A stretch of 64,000 bases of DNA, taken from contig NZ_CP121694.1 in the NCBI RefSeq assembly GCF_035573695.1, forward strand, positions 2,828,501 to 2,892,500, in the 5' to 3' direction. The DNA is from Metallumcola ferriviriculae (lineage in GTDB: Bacteria > Bacillota > JADQBR01). Position numbers and translations under genes: made by a program. Shown here one piece after another: positions 3,491 through 48,518 of this stretch; the stretch's first letter is position 1, and each line of letters begins with the position of its first letter. A model generated the notes under the pieces. The model ran no database searches. It saw only the letters and a program-made list of their open reading frames with translations, and was not told the DNA's origin.

Positions 3491-4906
3491 TTATAGGAGG
3501 TTAAGCAAAAATAGGCTGATTCCCGGTACATAGGTGACCAATGCCAGACCGACTATGACCGCTAAAAGCCACGGCAGCGCCGCTCGGGTCACCGTTAATA
3601 GCGGCATACCCGTCAAGCCGCTGGCCACATAGAGGTTTAGCCCCACGGGCGGTGTAATCATACCGACTTCCATATTTACCACCATGACGATACCGAAGTG
3701 AATGGGGTCAATACCCAATTTCATGGCCACCGGGTAGAGAATGGGCGCCAAAATGGTAATCATGGCCGTAGGTTCCATAAACTGCCCGGCAACGAACAAC
3801 AATACGTTAACGATTAAGAGGAATATCATTGGTCCCACGTTCCAGGCTACTATCAGCTCGGCAATTGCGTGAGGAATCCGTTCCAAAGTCAGGATATGCG
3901 CAAACAGCATGGCCATACTGATAATAAAGAATAGCATTGATGTAGTTTTAGCCGCCTCAACTAAAGTCTTACCGAAGTCTTTAATCTTGAGGTCCTTATG
4001 GATAAATAGGCCGACTATCAGTCCCAGCATTACGGCCACGGCAGCGGATTCAGTAGGGGTAAATACCCCGCTATAGATACCGCCGATGACGATGATAGGT
4101 AAGGATAAGCTCCAGATGGAATCCTTCAACGCTGTCATCCGTTCCTGGGATGAGGCCTTCTCAGAGCGCTGAAAGTTTTTTTTGCGAGCAATATAGAAAC
4201 TGACAACAGATAACAGCACCGCCAACATAATACCAGGCACAATACCTGCCAAGAACAATTTACCAACGGATTGGTCCACAGTAACCCCGTAAACTATCAT
4301 GGGAATGCTTGGTGGTATCAAAATTCCCAATGAGCCGGCAGTCGAAATAGAACCGACTGCGTAGTCTTTATCATAGCCGTGGTCAATCATGGCCGGGATC
4401 ATGATGCCGCCGATGGCAACCACAGTGGCTGGTGATGACCCGGAAATTGCTGCAAATAAGGCACAGGCAAAGATTCCCGCAATGGACAACCCGCCGGGAA
4501 TATGGCCCACCCAGGTATTAGTCAGTTTAATCAACCTTTTGGCAACACCGCCGGTAGTGAAAATATTACCAGCCAGCACGAAAAAGGGAATGGCCATCAA
4601 GGGAAAAGTGTCTAAGCCGGAAAATATCTTCTGCGCCATGTTAGGCAGCGGATCTGTGGTAAAAAAGTAAATAGAGAATAACGACGCAATACCTAGAGAA
4701 ACCGCAATAGGCATACCCAAGAGCAAACAAGCAAATAACATGGCGAAAACTGCCAGACCCATATTACCGGTCTGCATTGCATAAATAACGCCAAATACGC
4801 AGATACCAACAAAAATTAGCGATATTATCCGTCCCGCAGGGGAACCGGGTTTGCCCTGACCGGGCATATTCTGATGTTCTAATTGTTTATCCAGGGTTAA
4901 ATCCAT
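3491..4906 (-). CDS. dctM: TRAP transporter large permease subunit DctM
   Basis: The large membrane subunit of a tripartite ATP-independent periplasmic (TRAP) transporter. It uses an ion gradient to import an organic acid delivered by the DctP-type binding protein. The 471 residues hold about 12-13 membrane segments. Family landmarks are FACLLLGMPIAVSLGIASL, AISGSSPATVVAIGGIMIPAM near residues 154-174 and a glycine/proline-rich GILIPPSIPMIVYG. A charged N-terminal stretch of about 25 residues precedes the first helix. The ATG overlaps the dctQ stop codon by one base, indicating translational coupling. The substrate cannot be read from sequence; C4-dicarboxylates are the default guess only. 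Confidence 0.92.
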   Translation of the reverse strand: MDLTLDKQLEHQNMPGQGKPGSPAGRIISLIFVGICVFGVIYAMQTGNMGLAVFAMLFACLLLGMPIAVSLGIASLFSIYFFTTDPLPNMAQKIFSGLDTFPLMAIPFFVLAGNIFTTGGVAKRLIKLTNTWVGHIPGGLSIAGIFACALFAAISGSSPATVVAIGGIMIPAMIDHGYDKDYAVGSISTAGSLGILIPPSIPMIVYGVTVDQSVGKLFLAGIVPGIMLAVLLSVVSFYIARKKNFQRSEKASSQERMTALKDSIWSLSLPIIVIGGIYSGVFTPTESAAVAVMLGLIVGLFIHKDLKIKDFGKTLVEAAKTTSMLFFIISMAMLFAHILTLERIPHAIAELIVAWNVGPMIFLLIVNVLLFVAGQFMEPTAMITILAPILYPVAMKLGIDPIHFGIVMVVNMEVGMITPPVGLNLYVASGLTGMPLLTVTRAALPWLLAVIVGLALVTYVPGISLFLLNLL

Positions 4907-29971: not shown

Positions 29972-30286
29972 TTAGTATTTGTTGGATTCTTGTTTATTGA
30001 TTTGTATATGATATCTCTTTTTATCGGAACTAACGATATGCCAATTAATGCAGTCTTGGTGACTTTTAGTGTATAAATAACCGCCTTTACCACCGATGTC
30101 CTCACCTAGGTAGTATTTAATCGCACCTGCCGGGCATTCTTTCAGGCAGGCGGTACACCCCCAACATTCTGTCGGATACTTGATAAATGCTTTATCAGTA
30201 TTGCCCGTTTCAATCAGATTACCGGGACAAATATTACAACAGCGGCCGCATGAAATGCATTTAGCTGGGTCAATTAGTATGCTCAT
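29972..30286 (-). CDS. aprB: APS reductase beta subunit AprB-like ferredoxin
   Basis: The iron-sulfur partner of AprA. The 104 residues carry two [4Fe-4S] motifs: [12 protein letters not shown] near residue 11 and [12 protein letters not shown] near 42, followed by a tail ([25 protein letters not shown]) like that of AprB. Together with AprA it would reduce APS to sulfite and AMP. The tail is shorter than in dissimilatory AprB of sulfate reducers, as is usual for assimilation-type AprB. ATG at 30286 is preceded by GGGAGG at 10 nt; it overlaps the end of aprA by 17 bp. Confidence 0.87.
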
Positions 30287-31958
30287 AAATTTCATCCCTC
30301 CCAACCAAGTCTCTCAAGAGAATTTGTACCCGGCCGTCTTTATAAATCGAATTTACGTACTTCATCCACTTTTGGTCATCTTTTTGGGGATAATCAATGT
30401 TCTCTTGATAACATCTCCATCGGGTTTCCTTTCTTGCTTCAAGATGTCTGATCAATACGGCACATACATATAAACGGTCAATGATTTCACAGATAGATAA
30501 TAATTCATGCAGGGTCTCAGCCTTTAAGTCAGCCGCGGTTTTCAGCAGTTCCTCTATCCGCTCAGCAGCAATACCTAATTTATTTCTGCTATAGGTGTAA
30601 GCCGTAGTAATACCACCTGCATATTCGTCCATAACTTTTTGCATTGTTTCCTCAACCTCTTCAATACTGTATAGCGGTGAGTCATTGTAAAAAAAGTGAT
30701 CTATACAGCTAATTTTTTTACTTATTTTTTCGGGGTCTAATTGGTGAATTTGCGCCGTTTCTATGGTTTCGATTACCGACGTGGCTGCTATTTCTCCTTC
30801 CGCGAGGCAGCCGGTCACGTATTTTTTGGGACTGCCGCCGGCAGCATCGCCGATGGCATACAAATTCTTCAATGTTGTCTTCCTGGCATGGTCTACCCAG
30901 TAACCGCTGGCTGCATGGCCGCCCACAATGTATGGCTCAGTTCCCTCTATTTCAACATTTTCCTCTGCCGGACCAGTGTTTTTTTCCAGCCATTTTAATG
31001 CCTGAGCCGGAGCCATGTTTAAGTAAGCTTTGAACAATTCACTTTGTTGGCCCTCTGTAATTCCCTTTGTTTTTAAAAAGCACGGGCCGCTGCCTTTAAC
31101 ATTTTCCATAACAGTAGCGTACAGCCTTAAATGGGTGCTGCATATCTGGCTGTCTTTTAAATATTCCTCACCTTTGGCATTAATTTGAACCGTATTAACA
31201 CCCTGAGCAATAGTACCGGTAGGTGCTATGGTATCTTTACATCTTAAGGCGATAAACCTCATCTCAAAAGAGGTCATCTCAGCACCGGCCCTAATTCCCA
31301 TGGCATATCCGGCTCCTGTATTGAAGGGACTATACCACATTTTATGTCTGGAAAAAGTAGGGTTATTAGGTTTGTATAGCCCTGATGCCCCGCCGGTTGC
31401 ACATATGGTTTGTTTAGCATGAATTACGTAAATAATATTTTCGTTCAACGAAAAACCAATGGCCCCTAAGACACGGTCATCTTTAACCAAATAGTCCACA
31501 ATATTAACGTTATTCAAAACAGCCGTATTATCTTGACTTGTTACTGCTTTGGCAAGAAGAGGCTTTATATTTTCACCGTTAATTTTAATGCTTCTTTTTC
31601 CCCTTTGAACATACTCTCCATTTTCATCCTTAAAAATTGGCAACCCCAAAGCTTCAAGCCTTTTGGCTGCTTTATTAAGGCGTTTTGCCGCACTGTAAAC
31701 CAAATCTTCCCGAATGATACCCTCGGAGTCTTTTTTCACATAGTCAACAAAAGTTTCGGGAGTTTCGCCTTTACCAATATAGGCATTCAAAGCATTTACA
31801 CCTGCAGCTAAACAACCGCTCCTTTTGATATTGGCTTTATCCGCAATTAATACTTGTAAATTGGAATTTTCGGCTATGGTAAGGGCGCAGTAACACCCGG
31901 CGGTTCCGCCGCCGATAATTAATACATCTGTTTCTAAAGTCTTTAGGTCAAAGTTCAC
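30270..31958 (-). CDS. aprA: APS reductase alpha subunit AprA-like flavoprotein
   Basis: An FAD enzyme of 562 residues that would reduce adenylylsulfate to sulfite and AMP with electrons from AprB. The FAD-binding motif VLIIGGGTAGCYCALTIAE lies at about 12-30, then DKANIKRSGCLAAGVNALNAYIG, which matches AprA more closely than fumarate reductase. Further landmarks are FALRC-type FIALRCKDTIAP near 235, GGHAASGYWVDHARKTTLKNLYAIGDAAGG near 343, and a helical C-terminal domain. It starts with GTG behind AAAGGAG. Its place between cysC and cysD/N points to assimilation rather than respiration; no aprM, qmo or sat gene is adjacent. Confidence 0.87.
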   Translation of the reverse strand: MNFDLKTLETDVLIIGGGTAGCYCALTIAENSNLQVLIADKANIKRSGCLAAGVNALNAYIGKGETPETFVDYVKKDSEGIIREDLVYSAAKRLNKAAKRLEALGLPIFKDENGEYVQRGKRSIKINGENIKPLLAKAVTSQDNTAVLNNVNIVDYLVKDDRVLGAIGFSLNENIIYVIHAKQTICATGGASGLYKPNNPTFSRHKMWYSPFNTGAGYAMGIRAGAEMTSFEMRFIALRCKDTIAPTGTIAQGVNTVQINAKGEEYLKDSQICSTHLRLYATVMENVKGSGPCFLKTKGITEGQQSELFKAYLNMAPAQALKWLEKNTGPAEENVEIEGTEPYIVGGHAASGYWVDHARKTTLKNLYAIGDAAGGSPKKYVTGCLAEGEIAATSVIETIETAQIHQLDPEKISKKISCIDHFFYNDSPLYSIEEVEETMQKVMDEYAGGITTAYTYSRNKLGIAAERIEELLKTAADLKAETLHELLSICEIIDRLYVCAVLIRHLEARKETRWRCYQENIDYPQKDDQKWMKYVNSIYKDGRVQILLRDLVGRDEIYEHTN

Positions 31959-31973
31959 AGCCGTTCAACTCCT

Positions 31974-32585
31974 TTACAAAGTAACATCCTTAAAATGCCC
32001 TTGCGCTAATAAGTAATTAATTATGTCATCCACACAATCTTCTATGCTTTGTTTGTCCGAAATAATAACAATCTCGGGATTGACAGGTTTCTCATATGGG
32101 GAATCTATCCCGGTAAAGTCTTTTATCTCCCCAGCTCTGGCTTTTTTATAAAGTCCTTTGGGGTCTCTGCTTTCACATGCTTTTAAAGAACAATCTACAA
32201 ATACCTCGATAAACCTATCTCCCATCAGTTGTCTCGCATTTTCTCTATCTGCTGCCAGCGGCGAAATAAAAGCGGTAAGCGTAATAATACCGGCGTCCAG
32301 AAATAATTTACATACTTCGGCAATTCTCCTTATGTTTTCAACGCGGTCACTGACACCAAACCCCAAGTCCTTATTGAGACCGTGCCTGACGTTGTCACCA
32401 TCCAGCAAATAAGTAAGCCTGCCCAATGCAGCTAATCTTTTTTCCACGGCATTGGCAATGGTGGACTTACCGGATCCGGATAAACCGGTAAACCATAAGA
32501 CTACACTTTTTTGCTGCAGCAAAGCTTCTCGATCTTCTTGTTTGATATTTGTATCATGCCAAACTATATTTTTTCCGTGTATCAA
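31974..32585 (-). CDS. cysC: Adenylylsulfate kinase CysC
   Basis: Phosphorylates APS at the 3'-OH using ATP, giving PAPS. The 203 residues have normal family length with Walker [10 protein letters not shown] at 34-42, [18 protein letters not shown] near 60-77 (the APS-binding DNVRHGLN), [14 protein letters not shown] and the [39 protein letters not shown] block. All catalytic motifs are intact, in contrast to the tail of CysN. The start is TTG at 32585, eight bases after GGAGG. PAPS is not needed by AprBA, so the enzyme may serve sulfonation or act as a parallel branch. Confidence 0.94.
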
Positions 32586-32597
32586 GGTTACGACCTC

Positions 32598-34031
32598 CTA
32601 ATAAATTCCGATGACCCGCCAATAAGTTAAGGCAAAAAGGGTAACCACTGCAATACTGACGACATTTAGCACAAACCCTATCCTCATCGCCTCATGGGGT
32701 TTGATAAACCCGGAAGAAAAGGCAATAGCATTAGGAGGCGAACTCATGGGCAGCATAAAAGCCAAACCCGCAGGTACGGCTACTATATAGACTGCCAAAG
32801 CCGGGGGAAGATTTAGCATCACCGCTGCCTGGATAATTAGCGGCAGCAATATAACAACAACTGCGGCATTGGAAATACCCTCGGTAAGAAATACACTGAT
32901 GGTAAAAACAACAATCAAGAAACCCAAAGTGGAAAAATCCATCTTGGCAAGGAAGTTTTGGTTTATATAATCCAATAAACCCGTCTCTACCAATGCTTTA
33001 CCCAGGGCTATTGCGCCTCCATACATAAAAATCGCACCCCAGTTAATTTCCTTTTTGGCGTCCTCCCAGCTGATTACATTTAAAACAAAGAACAGCGCTG
33101 CACTGATGAGAGCCACATTTGCAATGCCAAATCTATTACTTTCAAATATCCACATATAAATTGTTCCGACTAAGATAACCAATGCCTTGATTTCTTTTAG
33201 GTCAATCTTACCTAGTCTTTCTCTACCACCTGTGAACAGTTCTTTCAAAATTTCCGTATCGCGAGTGGAGGCCCTTACCGTATATTTAAGATAGAAAGCC
33301 ACCAGTATCATAATTAAATATACCGGTGGAGCAACCGTAACTATCCACTCCAAAAAACCGATACTCTGACCGGTAGTTTCCTCCAAAATCCCCACAGCAA
33401 GAGGATTTCTTGCACCGCCCAAAAAAGTAACCACGCCACCTAGAACGCTTCCCCACGCCAAGGCAAAGAACATGTATTTTCCTAAAATGGAATTATTTCT
33501 TAATTCCAATCTTCGGCTTATTGATATTAAAATAGGAAAAAGCATGGCAGCTACCGCGTGTTCCGGCATAATGTGGGACAGAGAAGCTGCTAAGAAAAAA
33601 ATTGAAAGAACTAAATTCTCCGGTTTATCGCCAAATCTTGATAAAACATAATATGAAACTCTTTTATTTAGCCCGGAGCCGGAAATACCGGCGGAAATAA
33701 TAAAAGCACCGATGATAAAAAAGACTGCTTTATTCCCAAAAAACGAATAGACTTGTTCCGCTGCCAACACATTAAATGAAGCCAAAAGCCCCATAATCAT
33801 CAGGCTGGTAATAGCTAGAGGAATAGCATTGGTTATCCATAAAAAGTTGGCAAATATAAAAATGACCAATGCCTGGTAGGCCTGAACAGACATACCTTGG
33901 GGGATGCTTTTATTGGAAATGAATATGAAAAACAAAGCAAAAGAAAATAATAGCAAAATTGCATTCTTATATTCTATTAAAAACAGCGCCGGTAACGGCC
34001 TTCTATCTATATAAACCTTGCTTTTCACCAC
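32598..34031 (-). CDS. SLC13/DASS-family transporter, probable sulfate importer
   Basis: A 477-residue membrane protein of the divalent anion:sodium symporter (SLC13/CitT) family with about 12 membrane segments. Landmarks include FFIIGAFIISAGISGSGLNKRV, the first SNT-like hairpin region ILSIFFLAASLSHIMPEHAVAAML, and the C-terminal AFMLPMSSPPNAIAFSSGFIKPHEAMRIG, the family signature. In this operon sulfate is the obvious substrate, as for other SLC13 proteins found in cys clusters; that is inferred from context. It begins with two successive GTG codons behind GGAGG; either could be the start. Confidence 0.85.
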   Translation of the reverse strand: MVKSKVYIDRRPLPALFLIEYKNAILLLFSFALFFIFISNKSIPQGMSVQAYQALVIFIFANFLWITNAIPLAITSLMIMGLLASFNVLAAEQVYSFFGNKAVFFIIGAFIISAGISGSGLNKRVSYYVLSRFGDKPENLVLSIFFLAASLSHIMPEHAVAAMLFPILISISRRLELRNNSILGKYMFFALAWGSVLGGVVTFLGGARNPLAVGILEETTGQSIGFLEWIVTVAPPVYLIMILVAFYLKYTVRASTRDTEILKELFTGGRERLGKIDLKEIKALVILVGTIYMWIFESNRFGIANVALISAALFFVLNVISWEDAKKEINWGAIFMYGGAIALGKALVETGLLDYINQNFLAKMDFSTLGFLIVVFTISVFLTEGISNAAVVVILLPLIIQAAVMLNLPPALAVYIVAVPAGLAFMLPMSSPPNAIAFSSGFIKPHEAMRIGFVLNVVSIAVVTLFALTYWRVIGIY

Positions 34032-34039
34032 GTTTCCTC

Positions 34040-34648
34040 CTACAATCCGCTGGATCCAAATGACTCGTCTATGTTTTTAACCCTGAGCTTTTGCCTTAAA
34101 TTCATCGTTTCCAACAGCGTCTTCAGTTTGATTTTGTCTGTCAGAGAATAGTCAGCCTGGCCCCTATCCAGCAAGGGTATTACCTTCAGCATATTGGAAG
34201 AAAACTTATTGTAGCATTTGTGGGACTTAATGTAGCTGCTCAGTCTGGCATCATATTTCACGGGTACGGGAATAATTTTCATTGCTAATAATTTTTTTAT
34301 CAGCTCTTTATCATTTGCCGTATTCGCAAAAACCCAACCGCGAACAAATAAGTCCACAGCAAACGTCAATATTTCCAAGTGCTGTTTGGAGCAGAGATTA
34401 ATATCTGAAGCAAAATACAAACCGTGTACACCATATGAAAAATACTCTTCTATCAGCTGCTTATGATTTGGCATGTCTGACTTGAGAATAATAAAGATAT
34501 CAAAGTGTTTTTTGATCATTTCTACAGTTTTTTTTCGGTCACTGCCGCTTAGCTCATCTTGGAAGGATAGGACTATATATTTTGTCTGATGTGTTGTAAT
34601 CACATCTTCAATAAAATCCAGCACAGTTTGTTTCGGAGTGTCCTCCAC
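34040..34648 (-). CDS. Unknown protein of the sulfate-assimilation operon
   Basis: A 202-residue soluble protein that I do not recognise. It has alternating predicted helices and strands (KYIVLSFQDELSG, FDIFIILKSDM, GVHGLYFASDINLC, DLFVRGWVFAN, KIIPVPVKYDA) that look like half a TIM barrel, with no membrane segment and only two Cys, not clustered. It lies between metY and the transporter gene in the same direction, so a part in sulfur uptake or transfer is plausible. The start is uncertain: the GTG at 34648 has no ribosome site, while GGGAGGGGG lies 5-8 nt before in-frame ATT codons at 34669/34666, and the extra residues (INTIRIV) would add a natural beta strand. An ATT start would be rare. 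Confidence 0.6.
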   Translation of the reverse strand: MEDTPKQTVLDFIEDVITTHQTKYIVLSFQDELSGSDRKKTVEMIKKHFDIFIILKSDMPNHKQLIEEYFSYGVHGLYFASDINLCSKQHLEILTFAVDLFVRGWVFANTANDKELIKKLLAMKIIPVPVKYDARLSSYIKSHKCYNKFSSNMLKVIPLLDRGQADYSLTDKIKLKTLLETMNLRQKLRVKNIDESFGSSGL

Positions 34649-34734: not shown

Positions 34735-35965
34735 TCAAACTACTTTTAATGCCTGGTCTATGTCTGCCAAGATATCTTTTGAATCTTCTATCCCTATAGA
34801 TATTCTTACTAAGTCCTCATAGACGCCCATTTGTAATTTTTCTGCCTCCGTATTGTCAGCACAAATGGTAGAAGCAGGATGAACTATTAAGGTTTTTGAA
34901 TCACCTACATTTACCAGGTTTTGTGAGTTTTAGATTGTCTATAAAATTAAACGCCTTTTCTTTGCTTCCAAGCCTGCAGGTAATTATCGCGCTGGCACCT
35001 TTTTCATAGTACTTCTTAGCTAAACCGTAATAACTTGAATTGTTAAGCAGAGGATAATTGACCCCGTTAATCTTAGGATGCGTGCTGAGATACTGGGCGA
35101 GTTCCCCAGCATTAGCACAATGTGCTTTCATTCTCAGTCCCAGCGTTTCAATGCCGACCAAGTTTAAAAAGCTGTTCATCGGAGATAATGCGGCACCTAT
35201 ATCTTTTGCTATTTCTTTTCGCAGCTTAGCTGTAAATGCAAACCTGGAAAAACGTTTTGCATACTGGCTAAAACCGCTAAATTTATCGTCACCGTACTTT
35301 TTACTGCCTCCGTCCACAATAACTCCACCGATGGCATTGGAATTCCCGTTGATATACTTGGAAGTTGAATGGATGACCACATCTGCCCCATAGCTGATAG
35401 GTCTTATCAGGTAAGGAGTCGTTATTGTTGAATCTACTATAAAAATAATGTTCTTTTTTTGACATACTTTTGCTACCGCTTCCATATCCAGCACATCAAG
35501 CTTTGGATTACCAATTGTCTCGGCAAATACCACTTTAGTCCTGTCGCTAATTTCACTGCCTAAGCTTTCTTCATCCAGCGTCTCTAAAAATTTTACCTTA
35601 AGCTGATAATCTTCAAGGTGTTTAAAAAGGTTGTATGTCCCGCCAAATACACCGGAAGAGGAAATAATCTCATCGTTGGGTTTGAGGATATTCATTACTG
35701 CAAGATAGATTGCAGACATCCCCGAAGCTGTGGCTACTGCTGCGACGCCTCCTTCTGCGGCGGCAATTCTCTTTTCAAACGCTTCGACGCTGGGGTTGGC
35801 TATGCGAGAATAGACGTAACCGGCTTCCCTGCCGGCGAAAATGTGTTCAAGTTCTTTAGCAGTTTTATGCTTAAAGGCATTCGAATAATAGATGGGTACG
35901 TTAGTCGCGCCCGTATGATTATCTCCTGTCCAATTGCCGTGGATTAGTTTTGTCTGAAATTCCAT
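34735..35965 (-). pseudogene. Frameshifted O-acetylhomoserine sulfhydrylase (metY-like)
   Basis: A PLP enzyme gene of the Cys/Met-metabolism family (MetY type). The first 354 codons (35965-34901) hold the whole catalytic core: NVPIYYSNAFKHKTA, YSRIANPSVEAFEKRIAAAEGG, PLP-lysine region VIHSTSKYINGNSNAIGG. The frame then leaves the family at about 34917 and stops. The missing C-terminus is present in the -1 frame down to a TGA at 34735 (LVNVGDSKTLIVHPAST...VRISIGIEDSKDILADIDQAL). Removing one C at 34917-34918 restores a continuous protein of about 409 residues. It is thus a recent pseudogene, a sequencing error or, less likely, a programmed shift. An intact metY lies at 47223-48503. ATG follows AAGGTGATT. 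Confidence 0.8.
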
Positions 35966-35977
35966 CCAATCACCTTC

Positions 35978-36892
35978 TCAATCTCCAAACAGCGTAGTAG
36001 AAAAATATCTTTCTCCGGTATCCGGAATTATCGTCAATACTTTTTTCCCTTTACCCAATCTTTCTGCCACCTGCAGGGCAGCATATAAATTTGCACCTGC
36101 AGAGATACCGGCAAGAATACCTTCTTTACGGGCAAGTTCTCTGGCTGTTTCAAGAGCTGCTTTACTGCTGACTTTAATTACTTCATCGTAAATATCTACA
36201 TTTAGCGTTTTGGGTATGAAACCGGCCCCTATCCCTTGAATCATATGAGGGCCTGCTTCCTGCCCGGATAGTACCGCTGAGGCTTCAGGCTCAACGGCAA
36301 TAATTTTTATGCCGGAAATGGTTTCTTTTAAAATCTCTCCTACACCGGATATGGTTCCACCGGTGCCTACCCCTGCCACAAAAGCATGAAGATCCAAACC
36401 AAAGTCTTTTAATATCTCCTGGGCAGTGGTTTCACGATGCGCCTCAGGATTGGCAGGATTCTCAAACTGCTGCAGCATCAGATAACCTTTTTGCTCTACA
36501 AGCTCCACTGCCTTTTCAATTGCCCCGTTCATCCCTAAAGGAGCTGGGGTCAGGATAATTTCTGCGCCATAAGCCTGAAGCAGTTTTCTTCTTTCCAATG
36601 ACATTGATTCCGGCATGGTAAGAACCAATTTGTATCCTTTGGTCGCTGCGGTCATGGCAAGGCCTATGCCCGTATTGCCGCTTGTGGGCTCTACCATAGT
36701 ATCGCCCGGTTTAATCAGCCCGTTTTTTTCCGCAGCCTCAACCATGCTACAGGCAATTCTGTCTTTAACGGAACCGCCGGGGTTAAACATTTCTAGCTTT
36801 AAATATACCTCAGCAGCGGCGTCCTCTGCCATATGACCAAGCCTTACCGTGGGCGTATTACCGATGGTTTCAAGAATATTATCATAAAGCAT
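35978..36892 (-). CDS. cysK: Cysteine synthase A (O-acetylserine sulfhydrylase)
   Basis: A fold-type II PLP enzyme that makes L-cysteine from O-acetylserine and sulfide. The 304 residues carry [13 protein letters not shown] at 6-18, the PLP-lysine motif [11 protein letters not shown] (Lys about 43), [13 protein letters not shown] near 68 (substrate loop), the phosphate loop [13 protein letters not shown] near 174 and the C-terminal [15 protein letters not shown]. All active-site elements are intact. In this operon the sulfur could arrive either as free sulfide from the sulfite reductase or as a thiocarboxylate on the carrier protein, as CysM accepts from CysO in Mycobacterium. It starts 9 bp after the sulfite reductase stop codon. 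Confidence 0.93.
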
Positions 36893-36901
36893 TTTGTCAC
36901 C

Positions 36902-39196
36902 CTACACTTTCCTGACAACAAGAAGATTACACCCATCATAGTTGTCATCAATTTTAATAATCTCATGTCCTTCCGCTTCTAGACTCTTGGGAACATTCTT
37001 GATGGGCTCGCCATGATCCAGTTTGAAGCCAAGGGTTTCCTGAGAATTAATTTTTTCTAATTCGATTTTGGCCTTAACGAAATTAATCGGGCACTTAACG
37101 CCTGTCAGGTCAATTATGTTTACCGATAAATCCTTATCTTGATGATGACCCACTTCACCATATTCGTTAACACTCTCTTTTGATAAAGTTATTTCAAGTT
37201 TCGGATTAAGAGATTCAAACATTTGATTGACCTTACCAACCAGATACTTCACATCTTCATAATGTCTTTCCAGATTATCCACATCGCCAAGCTTGTAATC
37301 CAGGAGTTCGTTAATTACGTCTTTGATATTTTCTGTTACATAACCCGTATCGACGAAGTGGTTAATAAATTCTTTGAATATCAATCTATCTTTTGTCGTA
37401 TCCACACCCTGCAAAATCAATAATGCTCTGGCTGCTGATACACTGGCGTCATAAAGCTTTGAAGATTCTTTTGTTGTCCCGTACTCACTAAGGTGTGTGT
37501 GTGCATTAGAAATGTCTAGTTTGATGACGTCCAGCACCCCTGCACTGCATTCACCCGGCCCTCTGCCTTTCAGTGAGAATTTTTCCTCTGAACCAAAATC
37601 ATAATAAAGCTCAGGGTTTTCTGCTTCCGATTCTATCCCGGAATAATCATGAATAAGGCTTTTGATACCTTCAGTTTCCCTTGCTACAAATTCAGCGAAG
37701 TCAGAAATTCCGGTTTCACGCTTAAAATCTGCCAATCGGTATAAGAAATCAGGTATCTTTTTAGTGGGGACAGCACCGTATTCCGTACCCAAGACCGCCT
37801 TTTCGACACCAACAGCACCACCAAATAATACCGAGTACATTGGAATCAATCCGTCTTCTACTCTTTTAGCCTTTCCGAACAGTCCTATCTCGCCTTTATG
37901 GTGCTGCCCGCAAGAATTTGGGCATCCGGAAATAAAGATTTTCGGGAGCTGCCTTTTTATCTCTTCATCAACATTTGCAAATCTATGTCTGATAGCAGTC
38001 AGCAGGTTTTGTGATAACCCTAAGCCCAGCTTGCAAGTTGCCGCACCGGCACATGCGATGGAGTTATCAACATCAAAAGGAGAAGTGAATGGGGCTATTA
38101 ACTGTAACAGTTCTTCAGCATGCTCCCCGGTTAAATCTCTCACAAAAAAGCCTTGGGTGTTGGTCAATCTCACCGTAGGTTCGTAGTCCAGATCCGCTGC
38201 AAAATCAATAATTTGTTCAAGATTATCTACATTGAGGTTACCGTTTTTGGGATGAATGTAGACAGCATAAAGTCCTTCATTTCTTTGTGCAAATACTAAA
38301 GGATTGGAGTTTTTCTTTGGTTTGCCTATTGGTTTACTGGGATTAGAGTTATTAAAAAAAACATCCAATCTCTTTTCATTTTTCACCTGTTGTAAAGTCT
38401 CGAGATATTTTGCTTTGAACCCTGCCTCCCCTAATCTCTTTCGAATAAATCTGATGCGAGCTTTATGTTTATTAATTCTATCTCCTTCATTTTCAAACAG
38501 TTCTTTCATGGCCTGAACATGATACAGTACTTCCGAAGCAGGTATGAAATCGTAAAGTTTTACTGAGACGATAGGACCTGCACCAAATCCGCCTGCGCCG
38601 TAGACCTCAAAACCTTTCTTACCATTCTTAATTTTGGCAACAAAGCCCAGATCAGCGATGGTCGCATTACCCGTATCTTCCGGCGTATTCGAATAGGCTA
38701 TTTTATACTTTCGGGGAAGGTTAAAGACTGTCGGGTCATTAAGGGTGTACTCAGTGGTTGCTAATGCATACGGAGTAACATCAAAGACCTCATCTTTAGC
38801 AGCTCCTGACAGGGGAGAACAACCTACATTTCTCGCCGTATTCCCACCTGTACCCTTGGTAATAATACCTGCCTCCAAAAGTCCTTCCACTATGTTCACA
38901 GTATCGTCCAACGAGACCTTATGAAATTGTATATCCTGCCTGGTGGTAAAGTGAATATATCCGTGAGAATATTCTTTCGCTAATTCACTTATTTTTTTCA
39001 ATTGACTGAGATTAGTAACACCGGATGGAATTCTGGTTCTGACCATATAAGTATCGTTATCCCTTTGTTCATAAATACCCATGGCGACGCGGTAAGGTTT
39101 GAACCTTTCCGGTTCGATCTGACCCTTTTTCAATTCTTCCACTTTGGTTCGATAATTCTTTCCTTCTTCCAAGACTTGCCGGGGTATTTTAATCAC
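36902..39196 (-). CDS. Sulfite reductase (sirohaem, NirA/Sir type) fused to a TusA-like domain
   Basis: A 764-residue fusion. Residues 1-540 are a ferredoxin-type nitrite/sulfite reductase: two half-domains beginning FKPYRVAMGIYEQRD and NEGLYAVYIHPKNGN, the substrate Arg region HFTTRQDIQFH and TARNVGCSPLSG, and the [4Fe-4S]-sirohaem cysteines C382, C388, C425, C429 (CAGAATC, GCPNSCGQH). Then comes a helical linker of about 135 residues, and from about 689 a TusA/SirA-like sulfur-carrier domain (IIDLTGVKCPINFVKAKIEL). The key Cys is present, but the CPxP motif reads CPIN. In the operon it should reduce sulfite to sulfide, and the attached carrier domain might receive the sulfur. The GTG start follows GAGGAGG at 8 nt. 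Confidence 0.88.
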   Translation of the reverse strand: MIKIPRQVLEEGKNYRTKVEELKKGQIEPERFKPYRVAMGIYEQRDNDTYMVRTRIPSGVTNLSQLKKISELAKEYSHGYIHFTTRQDIQFHKVSLDDTVNIVEGLLEAGIITKGTGGNTARNVGCSPLSGAAKDEVFDVTPYALATTEYTLNDPTVFNLPRKYKIAYSNTPEDTGNATIADLGFVAKIKNGKKGFEVYGAGGFGAGPIVSVKLYDFIPASEVLYHVQAMKELFENEGDRINKHKARIRFIRKRLGEAGFKAKYLETLQQVKNEKRLDVFFNNSNPSKPIGKPKKNSNPLVFAQRNEGLYAVYIHPKNGNLNVDNLEQIIDFAADLDYEPTVRLTNTQGFFVRDLTGEHAEELLQLIAPFTSPFDVDNSIACAGAATCKLGLGLSQNLLTAIRHRFANVDEEIKRQLPKIFISGCPNSCGQHHKGEIGLFGKAKRVEDGLIPMYSVLFGGAVGVEKAVLGTEYGAVPTKKIPDFLYRLADFKRETGISDFAEFVARETEGIKSLIHDYSGIESEAENPELYYDFGSEEKFSLKGRGPGECSAGVLDVIKLDISNAHTHLSEYGTTKESSKLYDASVSAARALLILQGVDTTKDRLIFKEFINHFVDTGYVTENIKDVINELLDYKLGDVDNLERHYEDVKYLVGKVNQMFESLNPKLEITLSKESVNEYGEVGHHQDKDLSVNIIDLTGVKCPINFVKAKIELEKINSQETLGFKLDHGEPIKNVPKSLEAEGHEIIKIDDNYDGCNLLVVRKV

Positions 39197-39222: not shown

Positions 39223-39636
39223 CTAGGTCAATAAGTATTCAAGTTCCTCCACAAATTCACCAGTAGCTATTTTAAAGAAATTAAGTACCGGTTCTTTTTC
39301 CTTTAATGAAATGATTGCGTAAAGTATGCCGGGATCATACGCCAGCCGTTTATCTTCTTCCGACGGTCTGGAAGGCGTATAAGGATGAGAATGATAATTT
39401 CCAACTAATTCAAGACCCTCGTTTCTCATTTCCTTCAGTGCCGCGAATTGTTCTTTCGGATCCATGGTAAAATGTTCACTGCTTTGGTCCATATTTCTCC
39501 CCGGGAAAATTTTATTAACAATAATTTCTTCCTGGATTTTTCTGCCCGCCAACAACCCGCAGCACTCCAGTGGAAATTCATCTCTTGCCTGTTTTACCAA
39601 TTGGTCATATTGCGCTCTTGACAGCTTCACTATCAT
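39223..39636 (-). CDS. JAMM/Mpn+ metalloprotease (Mec/HcyD type)
   Basis: A 137-residue zinc protease of the M67 JAMM family. Its core motif HSHPYTPSRPSEED (near residues 81-94) gives the two His, Ser and Asp of H-x-H-P...S-x-x-D, and the upstream Glu falls in FPLECCGLLAG near residue 22. Small stand-alone members act on sulfur-carrier proteins: Mec+ of Mycobacterium frees cysteine from CysO, and HcyD and QbsD trim residues behind the carrier's Gly-Gly. Here the carrier at 40533 ends GGGAIGL, so trimming of the tail is a direct prediction. It lies between the E1-like gene and the sulfite reductase gene. Confidence 0.88.
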   Translation of the reverse strand: MIVKLSRAQYDQLVKQARDEFPLECCGLLAGRKIQEEIIVNKIFPGRNMDQSSEHFTMDPKEQFAALKEMRNEGLELVGNYHSHPYTPSRPSEEDKRLAYDPGILYAIISLKEKEPVLNFFKIATGEFVEELEYLLT

Positions 39637-39733: not shown

Positions 39734-40543
39734 CTATAAATCACAAACGGGACCCTGGTAGTCAATTAGATTTTTTATGGTGGGCTCTTGGCCGCAGACA
39801 GCACAATCTGATTTATAATTAACCTTAATTTTCCTAAACTGCATTTTGACAGCATCATAAGTCAGCAGGTATCCGGCTAAGTTATTACCAAGGTCCAACA
39901 GATACTTGATAGCTTCCGTAGCCTGAAGCGTACCGATAACACCGCCCATAACGCCAAGCACTCCGGCTTCACGGCAGGTAGGTACAACTCCTTCCGGCGG
40001 CGGTTCCTTAAACATGCACCTATAACAAGGTGTGCCATCATCAGGAATATATGTGGTCAGCTGTCCGTTAAATCTGATAATGCCTGCATGGGAAAATGGC
40101 TTTTTTGCAATCACACATGCATCGTTGATTAAAAATTTTGCTGCGAAATTATCAGTACCGTCAATTACAAAATCATAATCCTGGTCTTTGATAATATCTA
40201 AAATATTTGAGGAGTCTACAAAGGTATTGTAGGTGACCACGTTCACATCCGGGTTCATTTCATTCAGCGTTTCCTTACCTGATATAACCTTTAACTTACC
40301 CACATCTTTAGTTTGGTGGATGATTTGTCTCTGCAAGTTTGATAAATCTACTTCATCGCCATCTACTAATCCAATGGTACCAATACCAGCTGCAGCCAAA
40401 AACATGGCCGCCGGCGCACCAAGTCCTCCAGTTCCTATTACAAGAACTTTTGCATCGAGCAGACGCTGCTGCCCTTGAACGCCAACTTCTGACAAGATGA
40501 TATGTCTTGAATATCTTTCTATCTGCTGTTCATTAAAGTCCAA
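39734..40543 (-). CDS. E1-like sulfur-carrier activating enzyme (ThiF/MoeB/HcyF family)
   Basis: Adenylates the C-terminal glycine of a ubiquitin-like sulfur carrier, the step before thiocarboxylate formation. The 269 residues have YSRHIILSEVGVQGQQRLL at 11-29, the nucleotide loop GTGGLGAPAAMFLAAAGIG near 38, DGDEVDLSNLQRQIIH near 62, DGTDNFAAKFLINDAC near 130, two zinc CxxC pairs (CYRC near 174 and CAVC near 248), and a Cys in PTCREAGVLG that may bind carrier sulfur. No rhodanese domain is attached, which fits sulfide supplied by the sulfite reductase. Its start overlaps the carrier gene by 11 bp. ThiF or MoeB of thiamine/molybdopterin synthesis is the alternative, but the neighbours argue against it. 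Confidence 0.88.
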   Translation of the reverse strand: MDFNEQQIERYSRHIILSEVGVQGQQRLLDAKVLVIGTGGLGAPAAMFLAAAGIGTIGLVDGDEVDLSNLQRQIIHQTKDVGKLKVISGKETLNEMNPDVNVVTYNTFVDSSNILDIIKDQDYDFVIDGTDNFAAKFLINDACVIAKKPFSHAGIIRFNGQLTTYIPDDGTPCYRCMFKEPPPEGVVPTCREAGVLGVMGGVIGTLQATEAIKYLLDLGNNLAGYLLTYDAVKMQFRKIKVNYKSDCAVCGQEPTIKNLIDYQGPVCDL

Positions 40544-40748
40544 TAGCTCCGCCCCCCATAAAGTACAGAAACTCTACCCGATCATTTTCCTTGATAATCG
40601 TAGTTTCAAATTTCTCCCTGTCAACAATATCACCGTTTAACTCAACAGAAACCATGTCAGGCATTTTTACCTGCTCAATCTCTAGAAGTTCCAATATGCT
40701 CGCTTCTTTTTCCAACTGCTTGTCGTCACCATTAATTTTAACGTTCAT
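40533..40748 (-). CDS. ThiS/CysO/HcyS-like sulfur carrier protein
   Basis: A 71-residue ubiquitin-like carrier and the first gene of the sulfate-assimilation operon. It has the ThiS fold signature: MNVKINGDDKQLEKEASILELL, VSVELNGDIVDREKFETTIIKENDRVEFLYFMGGG. Unlike ThiS and MoaD, which end in Gly-Gly, it continues AIGL after GGG, so the active C-terminus must be exposed by cleavage; a JAMM protease two genes downstream can do this. The frame is open to 40814, but ATG at 40748 follows GGAGG at 9 nt and fits the fold. Its C-terminal thiocarboxylate would deliver sulfur to cysteine or homocysteine synthesis. Confidence 0.87.
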   Translation of the reverse strand: MNVKINGDDKQLEKEASILELLEIEQVKMPDMVSVELNGDIVDREKFETTIIKENDRVEFLYFMGGGAIGL

Positions 40749-40769
40749 TGTGACATACCTCCATTTATT

Positions 40770-40794
40770 AATCCCTATTATTTCAATAGGAATT
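40770..40794. promoter_or_regulatory. 25-bp palindrome in the leader of the sulfate-assimilation operon
   Basis: AATCCCTATT, five bases, AATAGGAATT: nine of ten positions match as an inverted repeat. It lies between the -10 element and the ribosome site. Its size, A+T-rich ends and CCTATT/AATAGG arms resemble operators of Rrf2-family regulators such as CymR, which control sulfur genes in Firmicutes. The assignment to CymR is an inference. Confidence 0.5.
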
Positions 40795-40812
40795 ATTGGA
40801 TTTATTTTATAC

Positions 40813-40841
40813 AAAGTATCATTTTACGCCCGTGTTGTCAA
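40813..40841 (-). promoter_or_regulatory. Promoter of the sulfate-assimilation operon
   Basis: TTGACA, 17 bp, TACTTT on the minus strand, 65 bp before the carrier gene start. The -35 is perfect and the -10 weak, consistent with a regulated promoter. It lies directly upstream of the palindrome at 40770-40794. Confidence 0.65.
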
Positions 40842-46070: not shown

Positions 46071-47204
46071 TTAGGACAACGTTTGCATAAATTGTGCGAT
46101 TTTCAAGGACATTTTTTTAAACTCTATTAAGAATGCATCATGACCGTAAGGGGAAATCAATTCCCAGTAATGGCTGTCAGCGCCAGCTTGCTTAAAAAAG
46201 TGATGTATCTCCTCCTGATAATACTTGGGGTAAAGAAAATCTGAGCTGACCCCGATACTTAATACCTTACCCCGAAACCGGGAAAATACCTCTCTATATT
46301 CACCCCGGCCGCGTCCCAGATCGTGCAGGTCCATGGCTTTGGTAAGATACAAGTAGGTATTGGCATCAAAACGCTGTACCAGTTTTTCTCCTTGATAGTC
46401 TAAGTAGTGTTCCACTTCGAAACGGTTATCTAGGCTGTAGTAATCCTGCGGCCTAATGCTGGAGAAGGTTCGGCCAAACTTACTCGCCCAGGATTCATCA
46501 CTCTTATAGGTAATGGTGGCAATCTGCCTGGCCAAACCCATGCCCCGTATCGGGCCTGGGCCCGGATAATAGTGCCCGCCCTTAAAATCAGAATCTCCGG
46601 TTATTGCTTCGCGCTGAACTGCATTGAATGCAATACATTGGGCCGCCAACCTGCCGGAAGCGGCGATGGGTACAATCGCTTCCACCATTTCCGGATACAT
46701 TAGAGCCCATTCCAATACCTGCATACCGCCCATCGAGCCGCCGATAACCGCTTTGATACGCCTTATTCCCAGGTTTTTAAGCAGCAGGTACTGCACCTGG
46801 ACCATATCCCTGATAGTAATCAAGGGGAAATCAGCACCATAGGGTTTGCCGGTTTCGGGATTAGTGCTTTTGGGGCCGGTGGTGCCGCAGCAGCCGCCAA
46901 TAACATTAGCAGCTACTACGAAATATTTATTGGTATCCAACGCCCTGCCGGGGCCAATTAATTCATCCCACCAACCGGCCACGCGGTCTTCCGGCGTATG
47001 CCGCCCTGCCACATGGGCTTCTCCGGTGAGGGCATGGGGTACTATAATGCAGTTATCACCCCGCTGGTTTAACTCACCGTAAGTCTCGTAAGCCACTTCC
47101 ACCGGGCCAAAATGCTGGCCGCTTTCCAGGGTTAATTCATGGGGATGAGAAGCTACTGTAATGTATTTTGTTTCAACTAAGCCAACGCCTTTTCCCATAT
47201 CCAT
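46071..47204 (-). CDS. metX: Homoserine O-acetyltransferase
   Basis: An alpha/beta-hydrolase-fold enzyme that acetylates homoserine with acetyl-CoA, making the acceptor for MetY. The 377 residues have VAYETYGELNQRGDNCIIVPHALTGEAH, the nucleophile elbow GGSMGGMQVLEWA (Ser near 153), and the catalytic Asp and His in SIGVSSDFLYP near 320 and SPYGHDAFLIE near 350. The length matches MetX of the true acetyltransferase group; succinyl-CoA use by some members cannot be excluded. ATG at 47204 is 6 nt after GGAGAG; an ATG at 47210 touches that site. It lies 18 bp after metY. Confidence 0.93.
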   Translation of the reverse strand: MDMGKGVGLVETKYITVASHPHELTLESGQHFGPVEVAYETYGELNQRGDNCIIVPHALTGEAHVAGRHTPEDRVAGWWDELIGPGRALDTNKYFVVAANVIGGCCGTTGPKSTNPETGKPYGADFPLITIRDMVQVQYLLLKNLGIRRIKAVIGGSMGGMQVLEWALMYPEMVEAIVPIAASGRLAAQCIAFNAVQREAITGDSDFKGGHYYPGPGPIRGMGLARQIATITYKSDESWASKFGRTFSSIRPQDYYSLDNRFEVEHYLDYQGEKLVQRFDANTYLYLTKAMDLHDLGRGRGEYREVFSRFRGKVLSIGVSSDFLYPKYYQEEIHHFFKQAGADSHYWELISPYGHDAFLIEFKKMSLKIAQFMQTLS

Positions 47205-47222
47205 AGTCATCTCTCCAAATGC

Positions 47223-48518
<1,296 letters not shown>

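Follow-up and report, generated by a model that had tools for sequence, protein, structure and literature searches.

The window, the whole stretch of 64,000 nucleotides from Metallumcola ferriviriculae analysed in this study (contig NZ_CP121694.1, positions 2,828,501 to 2,892,500), carries a gene cluster on its minus strand, and the features of this cluster located below lie on that strand. In the order of transcription, homoserine/threonine/aspartokinase genes are followed by a ThiS-like carrier of the HcyS type (40533..40814; PF02597, TIGR01683), which ends in FLYFMGGG-AIGL; a ThiF/MoeB-type adenylating enzyme of the HcyF type with no rhodanese domain (39734..40543; PF00899, E=3e-81); a JAB/JAMM metalloprotease of the HcyD type (39223..39636; PF14464, E=2e-29), in which the motif HSHPYTPSRPSEED was read from the sequence; a Sir-HEPN-TusA fusion (36902..39196); the cysteine synthase CysK, right after the fusion (35978..36892; above the cut-off of TIGR01139); the O-acetylhomoserine sulfhydrylase MetY (34901..35965; TIGR01326); a 202-aa protein; a DASS symporter (32598-34031) and an APS kinase (31974-32585), both assigned by Pfam/NCBIfam; and AprA-like (30270-31958) and AprB-like (29972-30304) APS reductase genes, assigned from sequence and synteny. 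Taken together, the genes for uptake and activation of sulfate span 29972..34031, and ATP-sulfurylase-type genes, assigned by reading open reading frames, come after the AprB-like gene. The carrier tail that follows the GGG is short and varies in length and sequence in nearly all neighbour loci. Since the glycines are masked by this variable tail, a protease step that exposes them is expected.

The MetY gene of the cluster is frameshifted near its 3' end, and its C-terminal part continues in another frame, in a stretch down to about 34700, as a result of sequencing error or decay. An intact MetY lies at 47223-48503, adjoining a MetX-like open reading frame at 46071-47210, and just a 164-aa piece of MetY was seen at the same place in Anaerovirgula (L042). 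The 202-aa protein (34040-34648) belongs to no Pfam or NCBIfam family, and at least six related loci (L026-L029, L031, L042, and also L192) keep it at this place, flanked by MetY and the DASS symporter.

The cluster unites a masked ThiS-like carrier, an E1-like enzyme, a JAMM protease, a sulfite reductase and MetY, albeit frameshifted, which is the gene set of an HcyS-type cluster. The operon, the pathway and the presence of TusA within the operon are already known (Iyer 2006; Krishnamoorthy and Begley 2011). In the accessible part of their paper, Iyer, Burroughs and Aravind 2006 defined operon class 4e, in which ThiS/JAB/E1-like genes occur together with those for sulfite reductase, O-acetylhomoserine sulfhydrylase and APS kinase and in which SirA (TusA) is always present, a set shared by the window, and they already proposed a role in sulfur assimilation for these operons (PMC1779556). 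The same part of that text describes an actinobacterial fusion of ThiS with sulfite reductase, but no TusA fusion, HEPN domain or cysteine arm (PMC1779556). The protein-thiocarboxylate methionine pathway of Wolinella succinogenes (HcyS/HcyD/HcyF/Sir/MetY) was reported by Krishnamoorthy and Begley 2011, as cited in PMC5764234. Its downstream steps are established in outline: the carrier is unmasked, adenylated, thiocarboxylated and consumed by MetY. The window shares with Wolinella the masked ThiS-like carrier, the JAMM protease, the E1-like enzyme, the sulfite reductase, the O-acetylhomoserine sulfhydrylase and the sulfate-activation genes. The Wolinella system is not reported to include a TusA fusion, a HEPN domain or a Cys550 arm, and the window differs further in its frameshifted MetY and in having CysK next.

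The fusion is encoded by an open reading frame of 764 aa with a GTG start, and the plus strand over the same positions contains many stops. Pfam identified NIR_SIR, NIR_SIR_ferr and TusA in the protein, and 81 full-length relatives show the same domain order. The initial annotation described a 764-residue protein with a complete sirohaem/[4Fe-4S] reductase, and this description is borne out: the frame occupies exactly 36902-39196, the reductase part (residues about 10-520; 37637..39169) contains two NIR_SIR and two NIR_SIR_ferr stretches, the two repeats of a sirohaem reductase, and the four ligand cysteines of the cluster and sirohaem, C382, C388, C425 and C429 (C-x5-C ... C-x3-C; 37910..38053), are present in the window protein and in 100% of 82 aligned sequences. 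At residue 393 (about 38018-38020), near the cluster ligand Cys388, the window protein has Gly and more than 90% of the relatives have Cys (CKLGLC).

At the substrate site, a lysine pair K-x-K denotes a sulfite reductase and K-x-N a nitrite reductase. The active site of the fusion reads K163-x-K165 (PRKYK; 38702..38710), both lysines are invariant in the alignment, and a nitrite reductase identity is ruled out by this pair in favour of the sulfite type. The closest solved relatives by sequence are the nitrite reductases of tobacco and spinach and Mtb NirA. The nearest NCBIfam models are NirA and ferredoxin-nitrite reductase, and no equivalog cut-off is reached, the scores being 203.6 vs 523 bits for NirA and 93.4 vs 756.55 bits for CysI. 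A structure model of the fusion was made from 62 relatives (mean pLDDT 90, pTM 0.79), and its best solved matches are NirA/SiR, with a NirA-like fold in the reductase part (Foldseek, 1zj8, E=1e-27). The protein therefore resembles NirA-type reductases (Mtb NirA 1zj8 and plant nitrite reductase) in fold, cluster cysteines and domain order over the first 520 residues, but it differs from them in its sulfite-type lysine pair, in its additional arm, HEPN and TusA parts and in scores far under the equivalog cut-offs. No flavoprotein gene was seen adjoining the fusion, and from the NirA type of the reductase its electron donor is presumed to be ferredoxin.

Between the reductase and TusA, the initial annotation placed a helical linker. 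The helical bundle is real (residues about 552-662; 37211..37543), but the term under-describes it, as the bundle is a HEPN-fold domain with an invariant GRGxGEC motif before it. PF05168 (HEPN) was matched by 17 of 63 relatives (best E=5.5e-6), the window sequence itself being unmatched. Foldseek returned 2hsb for the bundle (prob 1.00 but E=0.036), then HepT and the HEPN domain of sacsin, with modest E-values, and the next-best genome matches of the linker profile are short proteins of HEPN size. No R-x4-6-H spacing, the HEPN RNase motif, was read in residues 552-662 of the window sequence, and the absence of this catalytic spacing rules out an active RNase.

The protein ends in a TusA-fold domain (residues 692-764; 36905..37123), in which the key cysteine of the CPIN motif is Cys702 (codon 37091-37093). 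A domain of this kind had been claimed at the outset, with a domain search of the C-terminal segment set beforehand as a possible refutation, and the segment does score as TusA: PF01206 covers residues 694-756 and reaches 54.8 bits, the gathering cut-off being 28.6 (E=8.8e-15), and the C-terminal part of the model resembles E. coli TusA (3lvj_C, TM 0.82, Foldseek). C702, P703 and N705 are found in 100% of the 82 aligned sequences. The E-value, the fold and the invariant cysteine rule out a match by chance or low complexity. The ordinary TusA motif is CPxP (PMC11073785), and the fusion departs from it with CPIN, as does the fused family with CPxN. This is not a peculiarity of the window protein, since CPx[N/T] is the rule for the TusAs of HcyS-type operons, fused and separate alike; two other TusAs of the same genome have CPMP. 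Compared with TusA, YeeD and YedF, the fused and paired proteins share the TusA fold and the invariant N-terminal Cys-Pro where the first helix begins, but they have CPx[N/T] instead of CPxP and are joined to, or paired with, a sulfite reductase.

When each species was represented by one genome and scanned with patterns from both motifs, 168 loci were found to code for a protein related to the linker-TusA part, and 81 full-length reductase-linker-TusA proteins were read from 80 of these loci plus earlier loci. They come from more than ten phyla, including Bacillota, Planctomycetota, Actinomycetota, Spirochaetota, Myxococcota, Chloroflexota, Armatimonadota and Campylobacterota, and all keep Cys702. 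Clostridium tyrobutyricum is one bacterium that has the fusion. Since the patterns of the first scan contained both motifs, the count was redone on loci fetched by profile, with unchanged result, which rules out conservation as an artefact of the motif-based search; sequences with Leu704, unable to match the first pattern, still keep the cysteine. The CPIN cysteine is thus conserved in every orthologue looked at, so that the second refutation set in the initial annotation also failed. In the phylum of the window, a profile search with strong linker-domain scores detected the fusion in 14 of 398 genomes, with frames of 768-821 aa in all but one, whose open reading frame runs into a contig end. 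Among these profile-found fusions, ThiF is present in 10 of 11 informative loci. An apparent gene fission in Myxococcales (L090), with Sir apart from HEPN-TusA, was rejected as an assembly artefact, the frames breaking at ambiguous bases (X).

How often the fusion occurs with HcyS-type operons was surveyed in the 49 fusion loci that have 4 kb or more of flanking sequence at both ends. Within 6.5 kb, ThiF and JAB were found in 42/49 of these informative loci, MetY in 43/49 and ThiS in 41/49. The fusions L049/L147 and L104 have no ThiS/ThiF/JAB nearby.

The phylum of the window was also searched with the JAMM protease and the surroundings of the matches were fetched. Many JAMM operons contain a different, small sulfite reductase of about 290-340 aa, and a separate gene for TusA follows it or lies close by. 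This reductase has eight further conserved or nearly conserved cysteines of a ferredoxin-like (Fe-S-type) kind, and a separate TusA is present in 28 of the 29 loci with it, the exception being a contig that ends inside the reductase gene. No cysteine arm was found at the C-terminus of these small sulfite reductases; as they are nevertheless paired with TusA, the arm is not required for TusA pairing. Fusion in one type of reductase and adjacency in another imply that the coupling of reductase and TusA arose twice, and that two distinct reductase types are both tied to TusA speaks more strongly than any other comparison for a functional link. In one genus (L212, L213 and L214), the JAMM protease and the small sulfite reductase form a single fused protein of 428-429 aa, with ThiS, ThiF, TusA and MetY beside it.

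Operon association would suit mere docking too. The reductase would then free bisulfide, which would attack the adenylated carrier, and the TusA domain, with HEPN, would dock ThiF/ThiS near the exit of the enzyme without Cys702 acting as a persulfide carrier. The altered active-site loop of these TusAs, CPx[N/T] in place of CPxP, is consistent with such a role, and so is the Wolinella scheme, in which free bisulfide from Sir was reportedly proposed as the nucleophile on the HcyS acyl-adenylate. Docking leaves the invariance of Cys702 unexplained, however, and likewise the cysteine kept by the separate TusAs of the same operons, and we consider it unlikely.

A second invariant cysteine outside the cluster, absent from the initial annotation, lies between the reductase and the TusA domain. 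The alignment of 82 sequences has six invariant cysteines, namely the four cluster ligands, Cys702 and Cys550 (codon 37547-37549). Cys550 belongs to the motif FSLKGRGPGECSAG (residues 540-553; 37538..37579), of which FSLKGRGPGEC precedes the HEPN bundle, and F540, G544, R545, G546, G548, E549 and C550 are invariant in an alignment of 62 rows. None of the family libraries used describes this motif. Arm-bearing relatives were obtained from a profile search of 199 Planctomycetota genomes, made without use of the motif pattern, which retrieved three kinds of protein: fused reductases; HEPN-only reductases of 746-800 aa, with the motif and HEPN and without TusA (n=9); and tail-only reductases, mostly of 585-618 aa, in which the chain stops two residues past the motif, as in ...DLGADKLFSLDELGAGECMA (n=12). 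The arm cysteine is kept in 18/18 fused, 9/9 HEPN-only and 12/12 tail-only proteins; the arm glycines and arginine vary across these relatives, but the cysteine does not. A quick tree puts the arm-bearing proteins together on one side of a branch with good support, HEPN and TusA being scattered among them, and the arm cysteine is absent from the reductases branching outside this group. It looks as if HEPN and TusA were gained later, inside the arm-bearing clade, with losses as an alternative. No ThiS/ThiF/JAB/TusA clusters were found around the arm-only reductases.

Since the arm cysteine also occurs in reductases that lack TusA, Cys550 belongs to the reductase and not solely to the connection with TusA, and its presence in relatives outside HcyS-type clusters means that feeding TusA cannot be its sole role. 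By analogy with DsrC, the GRGxGEC motif looks like a C-terminal cysteine arm and not a linker to TusA. DsrC has a swinging C-terminal arm whose penultimate cysteine takes up sulfur (PMC3397948). The likeness is one of analogy, no homology to DsrC having been found: in the tail-only relatives, a flexible C-terminal arm bears a cysteine close to the chain end that would serve a sirohaem sulfite reductase. The arm here differs in being covalently within the reductase, in having one cysteine, third from the end instead of penultimate, and in that its acceptor role is putative. The fusion has no match to the DsrC/TusE family (TIGR03342).

The same distribution bears on whether Cys550 takes part in sulfur transfer at all. 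It could be a structural or regulatory residue of this reductase clade, such as part of an active-site lid, a redox switch or a ferredoxin contact, with no relay through it, and the sulfur would then reach TusA straight from the sirohaem site or by way of free persulfide. That the motif occurs in TusA-less reductases outside HcyS-type clusters agrees with this, as does its prediction as a low-confidence loop where a helix starts, the confidence of the model being lowest in the arm region. A cysteine two residues from the C-terminus that persists in 12/12 tail-only proteins, despite varying glycines and arginine, nevertheless suggests a chemical job for the thiol, and a purely structural or regulatory Cys550 appears to us possible but doubtful.

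The sulfur of a TusA persulfide is zero-valent, and sulfide is two electrons more reduced. The initial annotation saw in the TusA domain a covalent carrier at the exit of a sulfide-making enzyme, for direct hand-off to the ThiS-like protein; a hand-off of sulfide can therefore not be simply a TusA persulfide, and either the reductase stops at S0 or the TusA domain has another job. A 2026 study found that assimilatory sulfite reductases give S0 directly and H2S secondarily (PMC13188885), which fits persulfide carriage. If S0 is released, a cysteine arm together with TusA would be a sensible means of keeping the sulfur protein-bound. What stands of the earlier proposal is a real and widespread fusion with an invariant Cys702, HcyS-type neighbours and a split version in which reductase and TusA are again paired; the carrying of sulfide as a plain TusA persulfide does not stand. 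Overall, the hand-off is plausible and better supported than before, though unproven.

From the domains, the conservation of the two cysteines, the gene neighbourhood and the repeated pairing of reductase and TusA observed here, we infer how the sulfur is transferred, in which oxidation state it moves and what accepts it, as follows. Sulfite would be reduced at the sirohaem and the sulfur would leave zero-valent, at the persulfide level. Its first acceptor would be one of the protein's own cysteines, most probably Cys550 in the flexible GRGxGEC arm, from which it would pass to Cys702 of the TusA domain and on to the ThiS-like carrier, after the JAMM protease had unmasked this carrier and the ThiF-like enzyme had adenylated it. 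The thiocarboxylate product would go to MetY (homocysteine) and/or CysK (cysteine). Freeing the thiocarboxylate from an acyl-disulfide would need an extra thiol or electrons, and Cys550 could serve there too. The HEPN bundle, without an RNase motif, may act as a rigid spacer or a docking module. This reading, in which an assimilatory sulfite reductase of the NirA type feeds an HcyS-type thiocarboxylate pathway through a sulfur relay of its own, is one we hold to be about evenly poised between right and wrong.

The same parts could also work in the opposite direction, with TusA supplying the reductase with sulfur or sulfite, for instance in the form of a Cys-thiosulfonate derived from thiosulfate or sulfite, and acting as a substrate-delivery arm. 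TusA-family proteins such as YeeD and the Metallosphaera TusA are able to carry thiosulfonate (accessible part of PMC4175335; PMC11073785). The cluster itself codes for taking up and activating sulfate and for reducing APS, a route that yields free sulfite, and the neighbouring genes form a sulfur acceptor system, both of which make substrate delivery very improbable. Returning to the outward relay, a broader version, drawn by analogy with DsrC, is put forward only tentatively: the arm-bearing reductases may form a clade with a DsrC-like arm in cis (GxGEC) that takes the sirohaem sulfur as a persulfide, so that assimilation would run on protein-bound S0 and not on free sulfide, and in HcyS-type operons this arm would have been extended by HEPN and TusA, giving one polypeptide that leads from sulfite to a ubiquitin-like carrier.

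In the full-text literature open to search, neither the Sir-HEPN-TusA architecture nor the cysteine arm nor the CPx[N/T] signature turned up. If the relay is true, assimilatory sulfate reduction in many anaerobes could bypass free sulfide, and the TusA long known beside these operons would have a testable role, with CPx[N/T] as a signature for finding more of them. A single purifiable protein and two point mutants could then test whether the product is S0 or sulfide and what accepts it. The cysteine-arm motif, new to the family libraries used, would be a further yield of the analysis.

A genome of the same family as the window (L192, about 4300-4900) has a second copy of the operon in which the JAMM gene is followed almost at once by a TusA-only open reading frame (CPINF), without the reductase-HEPN part.
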